Shown one piece after another: positions 17,902 through 24,126 of a stretch of DNA of 64,000 nt (the stretch's first letter is position 1; each line of letters starts with the position of its first letter). Origin of the DNA: Enorma massiliensis phI. GTDB lineage: Bacteria > Actinomycetota > Coriobacteriia > Coriobacteriales > Coriobacteriaceae. Made by a program: the position numbers and the translations under genes. The notes under the pieces are model-generated. The model did no database searches. It was given only the letters and a program-made list of their open reading frames with translations, and was not told where the DNA came from. Where the stretch lies: NCBI RefSeq assembly GCF_000311845.1, contig NZ_HE978575.1, positions 502,091-566,090 on the forward strand, written 5' to 3'.

Positions 17902-18795
17902 CTAGTGGTTATGCGCCCGTTCGTTTCGCTGGCGATTGCGCAGGTTGAGAACTGCGCCTTCCATACCAAGGGGGATGTACCCGATGGAATCGAGGTTTCG
18001 GGGAAGGTATGCGACGAGGCTCTGCTCAGCGTTGCGGCCGGTCTGAATTTGCTCCGGCGTCGGTTCTGGCCCCGGAATGGCGCAGACGCCGTATACGGCG
18101 GCCCCCTGTTCAGCAAGACGACGCTCGTATTCCGTTTCCGGATGCTCGGGATGCTCCGCGCGCGTGTCGATCGATGCCCAAAGCACCCGGTAGCCAGCTG
18201 CGTCGAGTTGCGTAAGCGTAAAGTCGTGCAGCGGTTGGCTGTCGGTCCTGAGCGTGACGGCGGCGCCCGGCGCGAGCACGCGCCGGTAGCTTAGCAGGTG
18301 GTCGACGCTGGTAAGGCGTTTGCGCGCGAACTTGCGCTTGGGGAACGGCGTGGGGAAGTTGAGCGTGATTCCAGCGAGCTCGCCCGGGCCAAAAAGGCGT
18401 TCGATTGAGTCCGCGCTGCGCGGCAGCACGATTGCGTTGGAAAGGCCCGTTTCAACGATGTTTTGTGCAGCGTAGGCGATGCAGATGGGTTCGGTGTCCA
18501 TGCCGATGAAGAGCGCGCTCGGCTCGCGTTGGGCTCGGGCGACGAGATAGGCGCCCTTGCCGCAGCCGAGATCGAGGTGGACCCGGCCAAAGCAGGGCGT
18601 GTCGCCGCGAGGTGCACTGCTGCAGGGCGTGTCGCGGCAGGTAGCGCCGCCGCGGGCCGCGTCGCCGCAGGGTGAACAGGCTTCTCCCCAGTGCCCGCGA
18701 TAGATTTCCGGGCGCTGCTCGATGGCAGCGGCGTACCGCTCAAGGCGATCTTCGAGTACGAAGTTCTTCGGTGTGCGAATGTGCGTGAGTCCCAT
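17902..18795 (-). CDS. trmB: tRNA (guanine-N7)-methyltransferase
   Basis: The 297-aa protein has the TrmB layout: RTPKNFVLEDRLERY at the start, DLGCGKGAYL (75-84) as the SAM-binding loop, FIGMDTEP, and LNFPTPFPKRKFARKRLT, the TrmB-specific catalytic loop. It would make m7G46 in tRNA using SAM in the cytoplasm. Residues about 40-69 are a Cys/Gly/Arg/Asp-rich repetitive insertion not expected in the family (DNA repeats of GGCGTGTCGC type). The start at 18795 is supported by the conserved N-terminus. Confidence 0.9.
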   Translation of the reverse strand: MGLTHIRTPKNFVLEDRLERYAAAIEQRPEIYRGHWGEACSPCGDAARGGATCRDTPCSSAPRGDTPCFGRVHLDLGCGKGAYLVARAQREPSALFIGMDTEPICIAYAAQNIVETGLSNAIVLPRSADSIERLFGPGELAGITLNFPTPFPKRKFARKRLTSVDHLLSYRRVLAPGAAVTLRTDSQPLHDFTLTQLDAAGYRVLWASIDTRAEHPEHPETEYERRLAEQGAAVYGVCAIPGPEPTPEQIQTGRNAEQSLVAYLPRNLDSIGYIPLGMEGAVLNLRNRQRNERAHNH

Positions 18796-19021: not shown

Positions 19022-19843
19022 TTATGCCCCTCGCGCAAGAACGAGATATCGGTTGAGCACGCCGCTCTTGCCATCTGCAGAGAAGCGCGCGATTTCGTGC
19101 ACGCCCTGTGCTTCGGCAATCTGCGCCAGCTCATCAAGCTCAGACTCTTCAAAGCTGTGGCAGTAGCGGTACCCACCGGAAGCATGTTGCCAACCAAGCA
19201 GGTAATCTTCGTTTTCAAGTTGGGCTGCATCAAAACCGGGAAACGGGGGGCGCACCTTCGCGCTCGCAGTTGCGTCCCGTGCTTTCGCGGCCAAGCGTTC
19301 ATCGTGCATGAATTGCCAGAACGAGATGGCGGCGATGCCCCCTGGGCGCGTCGACTGGCAAAGCCGCTCCACGAGCGCCGCCCTAAGTTCGAAGCTGGGA
19401 ACATGGTGCAGAAAGCCAAAGCAGCAGACCAAGTCATGCGCGCGGTCCGTATCTGGCGATGGCGGTGCGGGATGTTCTCCCAACAGGGGCTCCAGCACAT
19501 CACGGGCGATGAAATGCGCATCGAGGTTGTCCAGCTCTTTGAACAGGTCACAGGAATGGCCGGCGAGGTCTTCGCTTGCATCGATGCCGGTGTAGTCGAT
19601 ACGGGTGTGGGGGAACGCCTGTGCTAGAAACGGGGCGAGGCGCATGTTTCCGCAGGCGAGGTCCAGCACTCGAAGCCGGTGGGAACCGTCAAGCGCTCTT
19701 GCCGGAAGCACCGCTCGCGCCTCCTTGGCAACGTGCTCCCATCCGGCCCACGGTGCCTGGCGCGTGGCCGAGAAGGACGACGCGTTCTCGCGGTAGAACC
19801 GGTTGTTGAGCTCGATGAGCTGTCGTGCGAATGCGCGGTTCAC
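19022..19843 (-). CDS. Class I SAM methyltransferase, Trm9-like (putative tRNA cm5U methyltransferase)
   Basis: The 273-aa protein starts with GTG after GGGAGG and reads VNRAFARQLIELNNRFY. Motif I LDLACGNMRLAPFL, the acidic loop YTGIDASEDL, GFLHHVPS and the C-terminal YCHSFEESELDEL..GVHEIARFSADGKSG resemble the Trm9/ALKBH8 family, which methylates cm5U34 in tRNA. It is divergently transcribed from elp3, 67 bases away, and Elp3 makes cm5U. The pairing strengthens the assignment, but the reaction is inferred. Confidence 0.75.
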   Translation of the reverse strand: MNRAFARQLIELNNRFYRENASSFSATRQAPWAGWEHVAKEARAVLPARALDGSHRLRVLDLACGNMRLAPFLAQAFPHTRIDYTGIDASEDLAGHSCDLFKELDNLDAHFIARDVLEPLLGEHPAPPSPDTDRAHDLVCCFGFLHHVPSFELRAALVERLCQSTRPGGIAAISFWQFMHDERLAAKARDATASAKVRPPFPGFDAAQLENEDYLLGWQHASGGYRYCHSFEESELDELAQIAEAQGVHEIARFSADGKSGVLNRYLVLARGA

Positions 19844-19910
19844 ATTCCTCCCGTTTCGATGAGAACCAGTCCTGCTGCATCTTATCATCCATAGGATAGA
19901 ATGCTGTTTT

Positions 19911-21884
19911 ATGGAAGAGATCATTTTGCAGATACTCGACGCCCTGCGTCGCGGCGAGACGGTGGATGACCGTGCGCTCGTCAAGCTCGTGCATGTGCAA
20001 GCTCGGCGTGCGGGAGGCGACAAGCGCGCCTTCGCCAAGCGCCGGTTGCTGCCGTTTTACCAGCGGGTTAAGCGCGAAGATCCCGAACGTTGGGCTCGCT
20101 GGGGCATCACGCCCGAGCTCGAGGAGGGTCTCATCAAGGTGCTTCGCATGAAGCCGCGCCGCTCTGCCTCGGGTGTGGCGACCATCACCGTCATCACGAA
20201 GCCATGGCCGTGCTCGGGTTCATGCATCTTCTGCCCGAGCGATGTGCGCATGCCCAAGAGCTATCTGGCCGACGAGCCCGCCTGCGCCCGCGCCGAGCAG
20301 GCCTGCTTTGACCCGTATCTACAGGTCTCGGCGCGGTTGACGGCGCTTTCGCAGATGGGGCATGCCACGGACAAGATCGAGCTCATCGTGCTTGGCGGCA
20401 CGTGGAGCGACTATCCGGCTGAGTACCAGATATGGTTCATGCGCGAGCTGTTCCGTGCGCTCAACGACGACGCGACGGTGGGCGAATCGGGCTCTTCTGC
20501 GCGCGTCGGTTCCAGCGATGAATCCGGCGCTGCTTTTGCACCGTCCGGCTCCAGCGCTGCCCCTGCCTCGTTCGGTCCCGTCGCTGCTTCTGTGTCGCCC
20601 GGCTCCAGCGCTGCCTCCGCCTCGTTCGACCCCGCCGCCCCCGCGCCGCTTGACCCTGTTGCTACCGAAGCTGTTCAGCGCGAGGTTACGGACGGTCGCC
20701 TCTCTTACAACCAGGCCATTGTCCAGCTCTACGGCACAAGCACTGCCTGGCAGGAGGCCGCCCGCGTGCAGTGCGCGACTATGGATGAGCTCGAACGTGA
20801 GCAGCGCCGCAACGAGACCGCGCGCCACCGTGTGGTGGGCCTCGTCATCGAGACCAGGCCGGACGCCATCACGCCCGAGGCGCTCATGAACATCCGCCGC
20901 ATGGGCGCCACGAAAATCCAGATGGGCGTGCAGAGCGTGGACCAGCGCGTGCTCGACGCAAATGGCCGCGGCATTCGGGTTGCACAGATTGAGCGCGCCT
21001 TCTCGCTGCTGCGGCTCTTCGGCTTCAAGATCCACGCTCACTTCATGGTGAATCTCCTCGGCTCCACGCCGGAAGCCGATCGTCTCGACTACCAGCGCTT
21101 TGTCGCCGAGCTGGCGTTCCAGCCGGACGAGGTCAAGCTCTACCCCTGCGCGCTTATTGAAAGCTCGCGGCTGCGCGGCCGCTATGAAGCCGGGGAGTGG
21201 AGGCCGTATACCGAGGACGAGCTCGTGGGCGTGCTCATCGACGACGTGCTTGTAACGCCTGCATATTGCCGCGTCTCGCGCATGATTCGCGATTTCTCGT
21301 CCGGCGACATCATGGCGGGCAACAAGAAGCCCAACCTGCGGCAGATGGTGGAGAGCCGTCTGCGTGCGCGGAGTGAGCAGACCGGGGAGCGCGTGCAGGA
21401 GATCCGGTTTCGCGAGATCGCGACATCGGAGGTGGACGTGCGGGCGCTCCGGCTCGAGGTGGTGCCGTACGAGACGCCTGCCACCAGCGAACGATTCTTG
21501 CAGTGGGTGACGCCGGAGGGACGCATCGCGGGATTCCTGCGGCTTTCACTGCCGAAGGCCGCGGCTGTGGAGGTGCTTGCGAGCGAGTTGCGCGCGGCGG
21601 GATGCGAGCCTCCGGTGCAGCCGGGCGAGGCCATGATCCGCGAGGTGCACGTCTACGGCATGGCGGCGCGCGTGGGCGAAGAGGGCGGTGCGGCGCAGCA
21701 TCACGGGCTTGGGAGCAAGCTCGTTGAGCGGGCGTGCGAGCTCGCGTGCGAAGCGGGCTACGAGCGCATCAACGTGATCAGCGCGGTGGGCACGCGGGAG
21801 TACTACCGGCACCTAGGCTTCTACGACCACGGCCTCTACCAGCAATGCAAATTCAGGACAGAGGGAATGTTGCATCATGGGTAA
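19911..21884 (+). CDS. elp3: Elp3 tRNA U34 carboxymethyltransferase (radical SAM/GNAT)
   Basis: The 657-aa protein has the Elp3 N-terminus, then KPWPCSGSCIFCPSDVRMP with the C101-x3-C105-x2-C108 cluster, ELIVLGGTWSDYP, RPDAITPEALMNIRRMGATKIQMGVQS, and a C-terminal GNAT domain with HHGLGSKLVERACELACEAGY. It transfers a carboxymethyl group from acetyl-CoA to tRNA uridine 34 using SAM radical chemistry. About 60 residues around 185-245 are an Ser/Ala/Pro minisatellite insertion (DNA 20490-20650) with a repeated SGSSAA unit, unusual inside a catalytic domain. The ATG at 19911 suits the family start. Its stop overlaps the next gene. Confidence 0.93.
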   Translation: MEEIILQILDALRRGETVDDRALVKLVHVQARRAGGDKRAFAKRRLLPFYQRVKREDPERWARWGITPELEEGLIKVLRMKPRRSASGVATITVITKPWPCSGSCIFCPSDVRMPKSYLADEPACARAEQACFDPYLQVSARLTALSQMGHATDKIELIVLGGTWSDYPAEYQIWFMRELFRALNDDATVGESGSSARVGSSDESGAAFAPSGSSAAPASFGPVAASVSPGSSAASASFDPAAPAPLDPVATEAVQREVTDGRLSYNQAIVQLYGTSTAWQEAARVQCATMDELEREQRRNETARHRVVGLVIETRPDAITPEALMNIRRMGATKIQMGVQSVDQRVLDANGRGIRVAQIERAFSLLRLFGFKIHAHFMVNLLGSTPEADRLDYQRFVAELAFQPDEVKLYPCALIESSRLRGRYEAGEWRPYTEDELVGVLIDDVLVTPAYCRVSRMIRDFSSGDIMAGNKKPNLRQMVESRLRARSEQTGERVQEIRFREIATSEVDVRALRLEVVPYETPATSERFLQWVTPEGRIAGFLRLSLPKAAAVEVLASELRAAGCEPPVQPGEAMIREVHVYGMAARVGEEGGAAQHHGLGSKLVERACELACEAGYERINVISAVGTREYYRHLGFYDHGLYQQCKFRTEGMLHHG

Positions 21885-23058
21885 TGGTGGCATTTCGCCG
21901 TATTCGGGCGGCTCCGGTGGTGCAGGCGGCCCGGGCGGCTCCGGTGGCCGCAGCCCCCTCGAGGCGATGTATACGATTATCGCCGTTGCGATCGTGCTCG
22001 TCTTCGCGCTCATCGTCGAGCTGTGGAAATTCCCTTGTCAGGTCTGGGCTTTTTTCGCGGGCATCGGCATTCTTGGCTACCTTTGCATGCGGTTTTGGCC
22101 GCATATGGTGAAGACCGCCCAAGGCCGTGCGTTCATCTACACGGTGCTGGTGGAAGGCAGACTCGTGCGCGTTCTGCGGCTGGGCGGGGTGTACCAGTCG
22201 GCTACGAATCTGGGGCTCCATTGGGCAGAGCCGGTGTTCGCGTATCACCGCGCGTTCGATGCGGTCTTTGAGGCGGATCGCGAGCTGGCGGCACGGACCG
22301 GCCACGGCGTGCGGCGGGTGCTCGCGCTCGGTGGAGGAGGGTTTGCCTGGCCCAAGCATGCACTGCTTGCTCGCCCTGATCTGATCATGGGCGTGGTCGA
22401 GATCGATCCCAAGGTGATTGAGTGCGCCGAAGGATGGTTCTATGTTGAGCGCCTCAAGAAGGTCGCGGGCAAGCGCCTGCATATTATCGAGGGCGATGGG
22501 CGGGCGTATCTTGAGGAGCGGGCGGAGCGCATCGCGCAGGCCGAGCGCGTGCTGCCAGGAGAGATTCCGGGCGAGCTGCCTTCGGCCGTGGGGTCTTCGG
22601 TCGAGGAGCCCTCGGCCGTGTCATCCGTCGGCTCAGGCGGCGCGCCGCCTGCGATCGAGAGCTCGAAGGAGCGGAAGCCCAGCCCCCGTGCCCACCGCTT
22701 CGACGCCATCGTGAACGATACCTTCACCGGCAAGAAGCCGGTCCGCGCGCTCGCCACCGTGGAGGCCGCGCGCGCCGTGCAGAGCTGCCTGACTCCTGGC
22801 GGCGTCTACGCCATGAACGTGGTCTCGTGCGATGACGGCCGGGACCTCACCTTCCTCCGCGATGAGGTTGCGACCCTCAAGCAGGTGTTCACATACGTGT
22901 ACGTGCTTCCTGTCGATGAGCCGGTTTGGGCAGGCGAGGACAACTACATCGTGCTCGCCACCGACGGCATGGCGTTCTTTGATGGCACGATTCCCTACGA
23001 CGACGACTTCTTGGGCACGCCGCTTTGCGACGCCGATGGGGCGGCGGTGTCGGGCTAG
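21877..23058 (+). CDS. Spermidine-synthase-like protein with N-terminal membrane segments
   Basis: The 393-aa protein starts inside the elp3 stop (8-bp overlap). After a Gly/Ser-rich head it has two hydrophobic helices (about 30-55 and 58-75), then an aminopropyltransferase-like Rossmann domain: RVLALGGGGFAWPKH, MGVVEIDPKVIECA, IEGDGRAYL, FDAIVNDTFTGKKP and NYIVLAT. Polyamine synthesis is possible, but many such membrane-fused homologues have unknown substrates. An acidic/Ser-rich low-complexity insert (SAVGSSVEEPSAVSSVGSGG) occurs around residues 225-260. Confidence 0.78.
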   Translation: MGNGGISPYSGGSGGAGGPGGSGGRSPLEAMYTIIAVAIVLVFALIVELWKFPCQVWAFFAGIGILGYLCMRFWPHMVKTAQGRAFIYTVLVEGRLVRVLRLGGVYQSATNLGLHWAEPVFAYHRAFDAVFEADRELAARTGHGVRRVLALGGGGFAWPKHALLARPDLIMGVVEIDPKVIECAEGWFYVERLKKVAGKRLHIIEGDGRAYLEERAERIAQAERVLPGEIPGELPSAVGSSVEEPSAVSSVGSGGAPPAIESSKERKPSPRAHRFDAIVNDTFTGKKPVRALATVEAARAVQSCLTPGGVYAMNVVSCDDGRDLTFLRDEVATLKQVFTYVYVLPVDEPVWAGEDNYIVLATDGMAFFDGTIPYDDDFLGTPLCDADGAAVSG

Positions 23059-23104: not shown

Positions 23105-23635
23105 TTACGCCTCGTCTCGCTCGGCAAGCTCCGCGAGCAACTCGAGCCCCTCCTCCGTGGTGATGCAAAGATCTTCTGCGTGTTTGAGCAATGCTGCATC
23201 ATGGGTAACCAAAGCGTCGGCATCAATCGATTCTGCCGTAGCAAGCATGAGGTCGTCCTCAAGGTCATCGTGAAGATGTCGGAGCGTGAAGGCTCCGAGA
23301 ACCTCGGCGTTTCCAACGGAGGCAACGAGCGCTTTTCCAAGTACGTCGCGAACACACGCCCATGAAACCTCGCGCGCCGCAGCCGCGACTTCGGGCGTTA
23401 TCGGCTCTTCGGCATCGCGAGCATCTTTCTTCATCAAGTTGGCAAGCTGATAGGCAAGGTCTTTCAGCGAGAGTGAAGCGGTATATAAAACAATGTCTTC
23501 ACGGTGGATTGCGCCAGCGATGAACGTATTTACAGAGGTATGGCGTGTGCTCCGGGATAGAAAGTAGTCGAGCCAGACGTTCGTGTCTACGAGCAGTTTG
23601 ATAGGGTGGTCTTTAGAGAAGACGGACGAGCTCAT
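23105..23635 (-). CDS. PIN-domain toxin (second TA pair)
   Basis: The 176-aa protein starts MSSSVFSKDHPIKLLVDTNVWLDYFLS; the first catalytic Asp is in LLVDTNVW, and DDLEDDLMLATAESIDADALVTHD supplies the remaining acidic residues. It is a VapC-like ribonuclease. Its ATG overlaps the TGA of the antitoxin (ATGA), so the pair is translationally coupled. Confidence 0.85.
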   Translation of the reverse strand: MSSSVFSKDHPIKLLVDTNVWLDYFLSRSTRHTSVNTFIAGAIHREDIVLYTASLSLKDLAYQLANLMKKDARDAEEPITPEVAAAAREVSWACVRDVLGKALVASVGNAEVLGAFTLRHLHDDLEDDLMLATAESIDADALVTHDAALLKHAEDLCITTEEGLELLAELAERDEA

Positions 23636-23982
23636 GAGAGCCCCCAAGAAGTGAGCTGCTCGTCCGCCGCCATCTCCCGAAGCTCGGCGTAGTCCACGGG
23701 GGTGCTTGACGGCTCGTCTATACCTAGGCGCCGATAAAACGAAGAAACGATTTCAGCGCCGCTCGTCGATTCCATCTCGGTGGGGTCTTCCTGGCGAGAC
23801 GGCATGTCGCCGTTCGAATTGAGCGCCCGTACAAGCGCCGGAGGTAGAGCGCCTTGTACCGTAATAACCTCCCACAGGGCTCGAACAGCCTGCGAGGGCG
23901 TGTAGCCGAGGCGTGCAAGCGCCGCGTTGCCCGATTCTTTGAGAGCAGCATCCATTCTGATGTTCATCTGCGTCGCAGCCAT
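23632..23982 (-). CDS. RelB/DinJ-family antitoxin
   Basis: The 116-aa protein has a ribbon-helix-helix N-terminus (MNIRMDAALKESGNAALARLGYTPSQAVRALW) typical of RelB/DinJ, then an acidic toxin-binding tail. GGAGGAG lies just before the ATG at 23982. Upstream A/T-rich sequence with TATAC(T) on the minus strand near 24020 may hold the promoter. Confidence 0.85.
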   Translation of the reverse strand: MAATQMNIRMDAALKESGNAALARLGYTPSQAVRALWEVITVQGALPPALVRALNSNGDMPSRQEDPTEMESTSGAEIVSSFYRRLGIDEPSSTPVDYAELREMAADEQLTSWGLS

Positions 23983-24126
23983 GTCTCCTCCATGTGCTAT
24001 ACGCAAGTTCACTTTAAGTATAGCCAAATATAGGGAGCGCGGTAGTAAGTTAATGCGGCATGTTCAGATGTTCTTCAATCTGTATTTTCCGAGCGGCTCA
24101 ACCGCAAGATACGCGGGCGGGCCCGC

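Follow-up and report, generated by a model that had tools for sequence, protein, structure and literature searches.

A stand-alone Elp3 and a Trm9-like methyltransferase encoded by neighboring genes of Enorma massiliensis phI are likely to constitute a two-step wobble-uridine pathway to mcm5U34, which would take the place of MnmE/MnmG and would apparently operate without the activator Trm112. In the predicted chemistry, Elp3 would use acetyl-CoA and radical SAM chemistry to form 5-carboxymethyluridine (cm5U) at U34, and the Trm9-like enzyme would then methylate the carboxylate of its putative substrate, cm5U34, with SAM as the methyl donor, giving mcm5U34 as the predicted product. The MnmA of the same genome would thiolate some of the tRNAs, so that the end product there would be mcm5s2U34. 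Several features of the pair were established by computation, 1) both genes are intact, 2) the catalytic residues are kept, 3) the co-occurrence of the two genes is nearly perfect, 4) the genes are linked and 5) the methyltransferase is homologous to Trm9.

The two genes lie in the 64,000-nucleotide stretch that was analyzed, called the window below. The original prediction described Elp3 and the methyltransferase as head-to-head genes 67 bases apart, and the coordinates proved to be exact, the GTG start codon of the methyltransferase being at 19843 and Elp3 beginning at 19911 (Table 1). A ribosome-binding site, GGGAGG on the minus strand, is located directly upstream of the GTG codon, and the region between the start codons presumably carries both promoters.

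Table 1. Positions of the Elp3 and Trm9-like genes and associated features in the window.
Feature	Positions	Strand	Description
Trm9-like class I SAM-dependent methyltransferase	19022..19843	-	273 aa; predicted cm5U34 carboxyl methyltransferase
Intergenic region between both start codons	19844..19910	.	67 bases
Elp3, radical SAM + GNAT (KAT)	19911..21884	+	657 aa; predicted tRNA U34 C5-carboxymethylation enzyme
Portion of Elp3 with the Coriobacteriia-type insert	20466..20792	+	approximately residues 186-294; canonical Elp3 has 7 residues here

Other genes flank the pair. The methyltransferase gene adjoins a gene (17902-18795) for a TrmB-like (m7G46) tRNA methyltransferase, which scored slightly under the NCBIfam curated cut-offs and which keeps this position throughout the Coriobacteriaceae. 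A spermidine-synthase-like gene (21877-23058) shares 8 bases with the stop codon end of Elp3, an overlap that suggests an operon. Two small overlapping genes at 23105-24027 resemble, by eye only, a PIN-domain toxin and a RelB-like antitoxin.

The Elp3 encoded in the window scored above the curated cut-off of TIGR01211 (388 vs 350 bits), with a full-length match to the radical SAM and GNAT regions. Ten residues, C101, C105, C108, K155, K373, R577, E578, H580, Y631 and Y632, were invariant in the 41 Elp3 sequences, so that the Fe-S cysteines (C101/C105/C108), the acetyl-CoA and active-site residues and the tyrosines of the REYY motif were all kept. K155 corresponds to K77 and E578/H580 to E386/H388 of Dmc Elp3, whose residue roles were taken from work on Dehalococcoides (PMC6367351), where bacterial Elp3 is known as an isolated enzyme. 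The Coriobacteriia Elp3 is nevertheless divergent. The radical SAM region carries an insert of about 60-120 residues, 66-130 residues occupying the interval in which canonical Elp3 has 7, and a YNQA-like segment in it is fairly well conserved. The zinc cysteines found in archaeal-type Elp3 are missing.

As a single query, the methyltransferase of the window matched only generic class I models in Pfam and NCBIfam and a search of the PDB did not return Trm9, so a family profile was needed to test the resemblance. Profile A1 was made from 41 Coriobacteriia methyltransferases and profile A2 from six found in other Actinomycetota. Against 177,635 PDB sequences, the top match of A1 was Yarrowia Trm9 (5cm2; E 2.1e-8, the next match being at 8.4e-5), while A2 matched 5cm2 over nearly its full length at E 1.9e-20, with the FIPW and RYxH segments included. 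The A1 profile gave 76-95 bits with the A2 members, 74 bits with a Trm9-like protein of the haloarchaeon Natronorubrum, which was retrieved with A2-type and yeast Trm9 queries and has the key motifs, and at most 18 bits with paralogues from the same genome. The scores were 48 bits for human ALKBH8, 41 for yeast Trm9 and 23 for E. coli CmoA. Viral relatives were generic methyltransferases only, none of which had the Trm9 motifs.

The R29A, H115A, R241A, Y243A and N271A substitutions in ScTrm9 impair tRNA binding and turnover (PMC5372719). In the yeast sequence used for the comparison R29 and H115 had their published numbers and the C-terminus was off by one; after a one-residue shift, RYYH and N coincided with the published positions 241-244 and 271. 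Residues were mapped with MAFFT, hmmalign having aligned the distant rows only in part. Four of the five ScTrm9 residues, R29, H115, R241 and N271, correspond to R28, H146, R226 and N264, which are invariant in the 41 sequences. The counterpart of Y243 is C228, an invariant cysteine in the 41 Coriobacteriia sequences. In the sister family A2 this position is occupied by C, Y, F or V, which indicates that a change is tolerated there, and Y243, one of five residues important in yeast, is not known as a family-defining residue. The similarity to Trm9 that had been noticed in motif I and the C-terminal segment was confirmed; the N-terminal FSxTRxxPW-like block, the HH motif and the C-terminal RYxH...N blocks match Trm9 and ALKBH8.

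In a maximum-likelihood tree, the Coriobacteriia methyltransferases, A2 and the archaeal and eukaryotic Trm9 sequences were separated from CmoA and the paralogues with support of 85/92, the Coriobacteriia sequences forming a long branch. The grouping was weak in a first tree that contained two more long paralogues, and a single clade had an AU p of 0.47, so that it was not rejected. For the rebuilt tree these two sequences, L211_0, which had fallen inside the group, and L210_7, were removed and an archaeal member was added. The methyltransferase sided with Trm9 and not with non-tRNA families; a place among the latter would have spoken against the original prediction. The AlphaFold model of the methyltransferase had a pLDDT of 93.6, and 5CM2 ranked fourth in the Foldseek search and was not among the best 50 VIA-align matches listed. 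The fold was that of a generic class I methyltransferase, equally near to small-molecule and protein methyltransferases.

A survey of the co-occurrence of the two genes, suggested along with the original prediction, gave a nearly perfect correspondence in the class and in the phylum. Elp3 (E 1e-60 or better) was present in 50 of the 119 Coriobacteriia genomes and 49 of these also had the methyltransferase, in one case as a fragment. Elsewhere among the 119 genomes no convincing methyltransferase was found; two weak extra matches (G103 and G113, E about 1e-4) covered the SAM-binding core only. Among 396 Actinomycetota genomes, the methyltransferase and Elp3 each occurred in 31 and the two sets were identical, 25 of the 31 genomes also belonging to the Coriobacteriia sample. 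The probability of such identity by chance is about 1 in 10^46 on the assumption of independent genomes, which they are not. Both genes were present in three genomes of genus g14 and neither in one, so that gain or loss of the two genes is coupled within groups.

The genes were close together in all 114 stretches that contained both, divergent in 110 and on the same strand in four. Intervening genes, a few at most, occurred in the Collinsella aerofaciens group and in G108. Adjacency, mostly divergent, was found in nearly all genomes with the pair, and the other neighbors varied. TrmB, helicases and the spermidine-synthase-like gene were near the pair almost solely in the Coriobacteriaceae. TrmB and the spermidine-synthase-like gene were considered as the true context and rejected, since they are mostly confined to this family whereas the Elp3 pair is found throughout the class. 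Co-occurrence and adjacency across class and phylum place the linkage far beyond chance, and the pairing is not accidental. The carriers named in a profile search of contigs were Collinsella, Enorma, Olsenella, Atopobium, Adlercreutzia, Slackia and many MAGs. In G094, Elp3 was found without a detectable methyltransferase (L068), and G039 (L052) had only a C-terminal methyltransferase fragment, a 65-aa frame, beside a partial Elp3; both may represent decay of the pathway. Some Trm9-like copies have no Elp3 nearby, among them a second copy in G058 (L058 5271-6095) and those at L110 and L148; the unlinked copies include those of Slackia isoflavoniconvertens and an Eggerthella MAG.

The pair also occurs in a second actinobacterial lineage. 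Six of the 31 Actinomycetota genomes lie outside the Coriobacteriia (families f39, f48 and f77) and have an archaeal-type Elp3, scoring about 600 bits vs about 390 for the Elp3 of the window, together with a methyltransferase that is closer to Trm9, the A2 family of 234-242 aa. The two genes are direct divergent neighbors in G150, G186 and G362 and are separated by one ORF in G174, while in G323 and G352 they are on separate contigs, so that the arrangement could not be read.

Among the other genes of wobble-uridine modification, MnmG was absent from 118 of the 119 Coriobacteriia genomes; the sole exception, an isolated strong match (G071:C8:4785-6713), is possibly due to transfer or contamination. 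Nothing above the cut-off for MnmE was found in the genome of the window. The usual route of U34 C5 modification is thus missing. MnmA was present in 117 of the 119 genomes, including that of the window, so that 2-thiolation is available. Eukaryotic Trm9 requires Trm112 (PMC5372719). The Trm112 family (PF03966) had no match in the genome of the window, and elsewhere in the Coriobacteriia the matches were few, scattered and weak, mostly within long frames; independence of Trm112 is predicted from this result.

One alternative is that the methyltransferase acts on the Elp3 product or the same tRNAs and yields a product other than mcm5U, the methyl group being placed elsewhere on the wobble nucleoside or another derivative being formed. 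Such an outcome would be compatible with the long branch in the tree, the invariant cysteine in place of Y243, the failure to find Trm112 in the genome of the window and the insert in the Coriobacteriia Elp3 itself. However, R29, H115, R241 and N271, for which a role in positioning cm5U34 has been proposed in Trm9, are all invariant and the Y243 position is tolerant, with C, Y, F and V in the sister family, so a product of this kind is considered unlikely.

It is also conceivable that the methyltransferase is a generic SAM-dependent enzyme, acts on something other than tRNA and shares the divergent promoter region with Elp3 by chance, as the generic class I matches of the single-sequence searches and the equal nearness of the fold to small-molecule and protein methyltransferases might suggest. 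Chance sharing is difficult to reconcile with the co-occurrence (49 of 50 genomes and two identical sets of 31), with a linkage that persists despite changes in orientation and in all other neighbors, with the recurrence of the pair in a second lineage having a different Elp3, or with the tree placement and active-site residues, and this explanation is very improbable. Finally, the role of the methyltransferase would differ if Elp3 did not make cm5U and, for example, only bound or acetylated something. The insert within the radical SAM domain could be taken in this sense, as could the missing zinc cysteines, but eukaryotic Elp3 likewise lacks the zinc cysteines (PMC6367351), all 41 sequences retain the tested residues for Fe-S and acetyl-CoA binding and for the active site, and the protein is above the TIGR01211 cut-off, which leaves this possibility hardly any weight.

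The favored reading, synthesis of mcm5U34 by Elp3 and the Trm9-like enzyme, has counterparts in other organisms. Yeast Trm9 (Trm9-Trm112) and the methyltransferase domain of ALKBH8 share with the bacterial protein the class I fold, the FSxTRxxPW-type N-terminal block, the CGN motif I, the HH, W and RYxH motifs and the C-terminal N, as well as four of the five residues important in ScTrm9 and a functional link to Elp3. They differ in that the enzyme described here is bacterial, has Cys for Y243 and comes from a genome in which Trm112 was not found, and in that the eukaryotic partner is the six-subunit Elongator, whereas here it is a divergently paired, stand-alone Elp3. Elp3 and Trm9 are known in eukaryotes and predicted in some archaea, with the genes clustered in Sulfolobus solfataricus (PMC2584109, PMC5372719). 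The predicted archaeal pair (Sulfolobus, Haloferax) likewise consists of a stand-alone Elp3 and a Trm9-like enzyme, but these archaea have Trm112 and Tuc1/NcsA thiolation, in contrast to MnmA and a Trm112 that was not found here. The MnmE/MnmG/MnmC (mnm5U, cmnm5U) and MnmL/MnmM systems also modify C5 of U34 in bacteria and serve split codon boxes, although by different chemistry. CmoA/CmoB (cmo5U34) resemble the present enzymes in SAM-dependent chemistry at C5 of U34 and in the class I fold, but CmoA, at 23 bits with the A1 profile, lacks the Trm9 motif residues.

A 2008 survey listed mcm5U as typical of eukaryotes (PMC2584109), and a 2017 review stated that bacterial relatives of the Trm112-dependent methyltransferases were not detectable (PMC5372719). 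A limited literature search, with subscription journals largely outside its reach, turned up no description of a bacterial Trm9 or of mcm5U in bacteria, and a bacterial version of the eukaryotic and archaeal Elp3-Trm9 pathway appears to be unreported in the literature searched. The suggestion that the linkage points to bacterial synthesis of mcm5U gained support from the co-occurrence, the tree and the conserved residues; the view of the modification as purely eukaryotic did not hold, the pathway being predicted in some archaea as well.

On the basis of the sequences, gut bacteria of the Collinsella group probably make mcm5U. For the Coriobacteriia more broadly, meaning Collinsella, the Atopobiaceae and part of the Eggerthellaceae, we are inclined to think, with somewhat less assurance, that a Trm112-independent mcm5U/mcm5s2U pathway of Elp3, the Trm9-like enzyme and MnmA replaces MnmE/MnmG, and that the same pair occurs, with an archaeal-type Elp3, in the second actinobacterial lineage. 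If so, the mcm5U pathway would be present in all three domains of life, by way of common human gut bacteria, and the modification of U34 in these bacteria, which lack MnmE/MnmG, would be explained. A Trm9 that is possibly free of Trm112 would become available for biochemistry, and lone bacterial Elp3 proteins would gain a defined downstream step.
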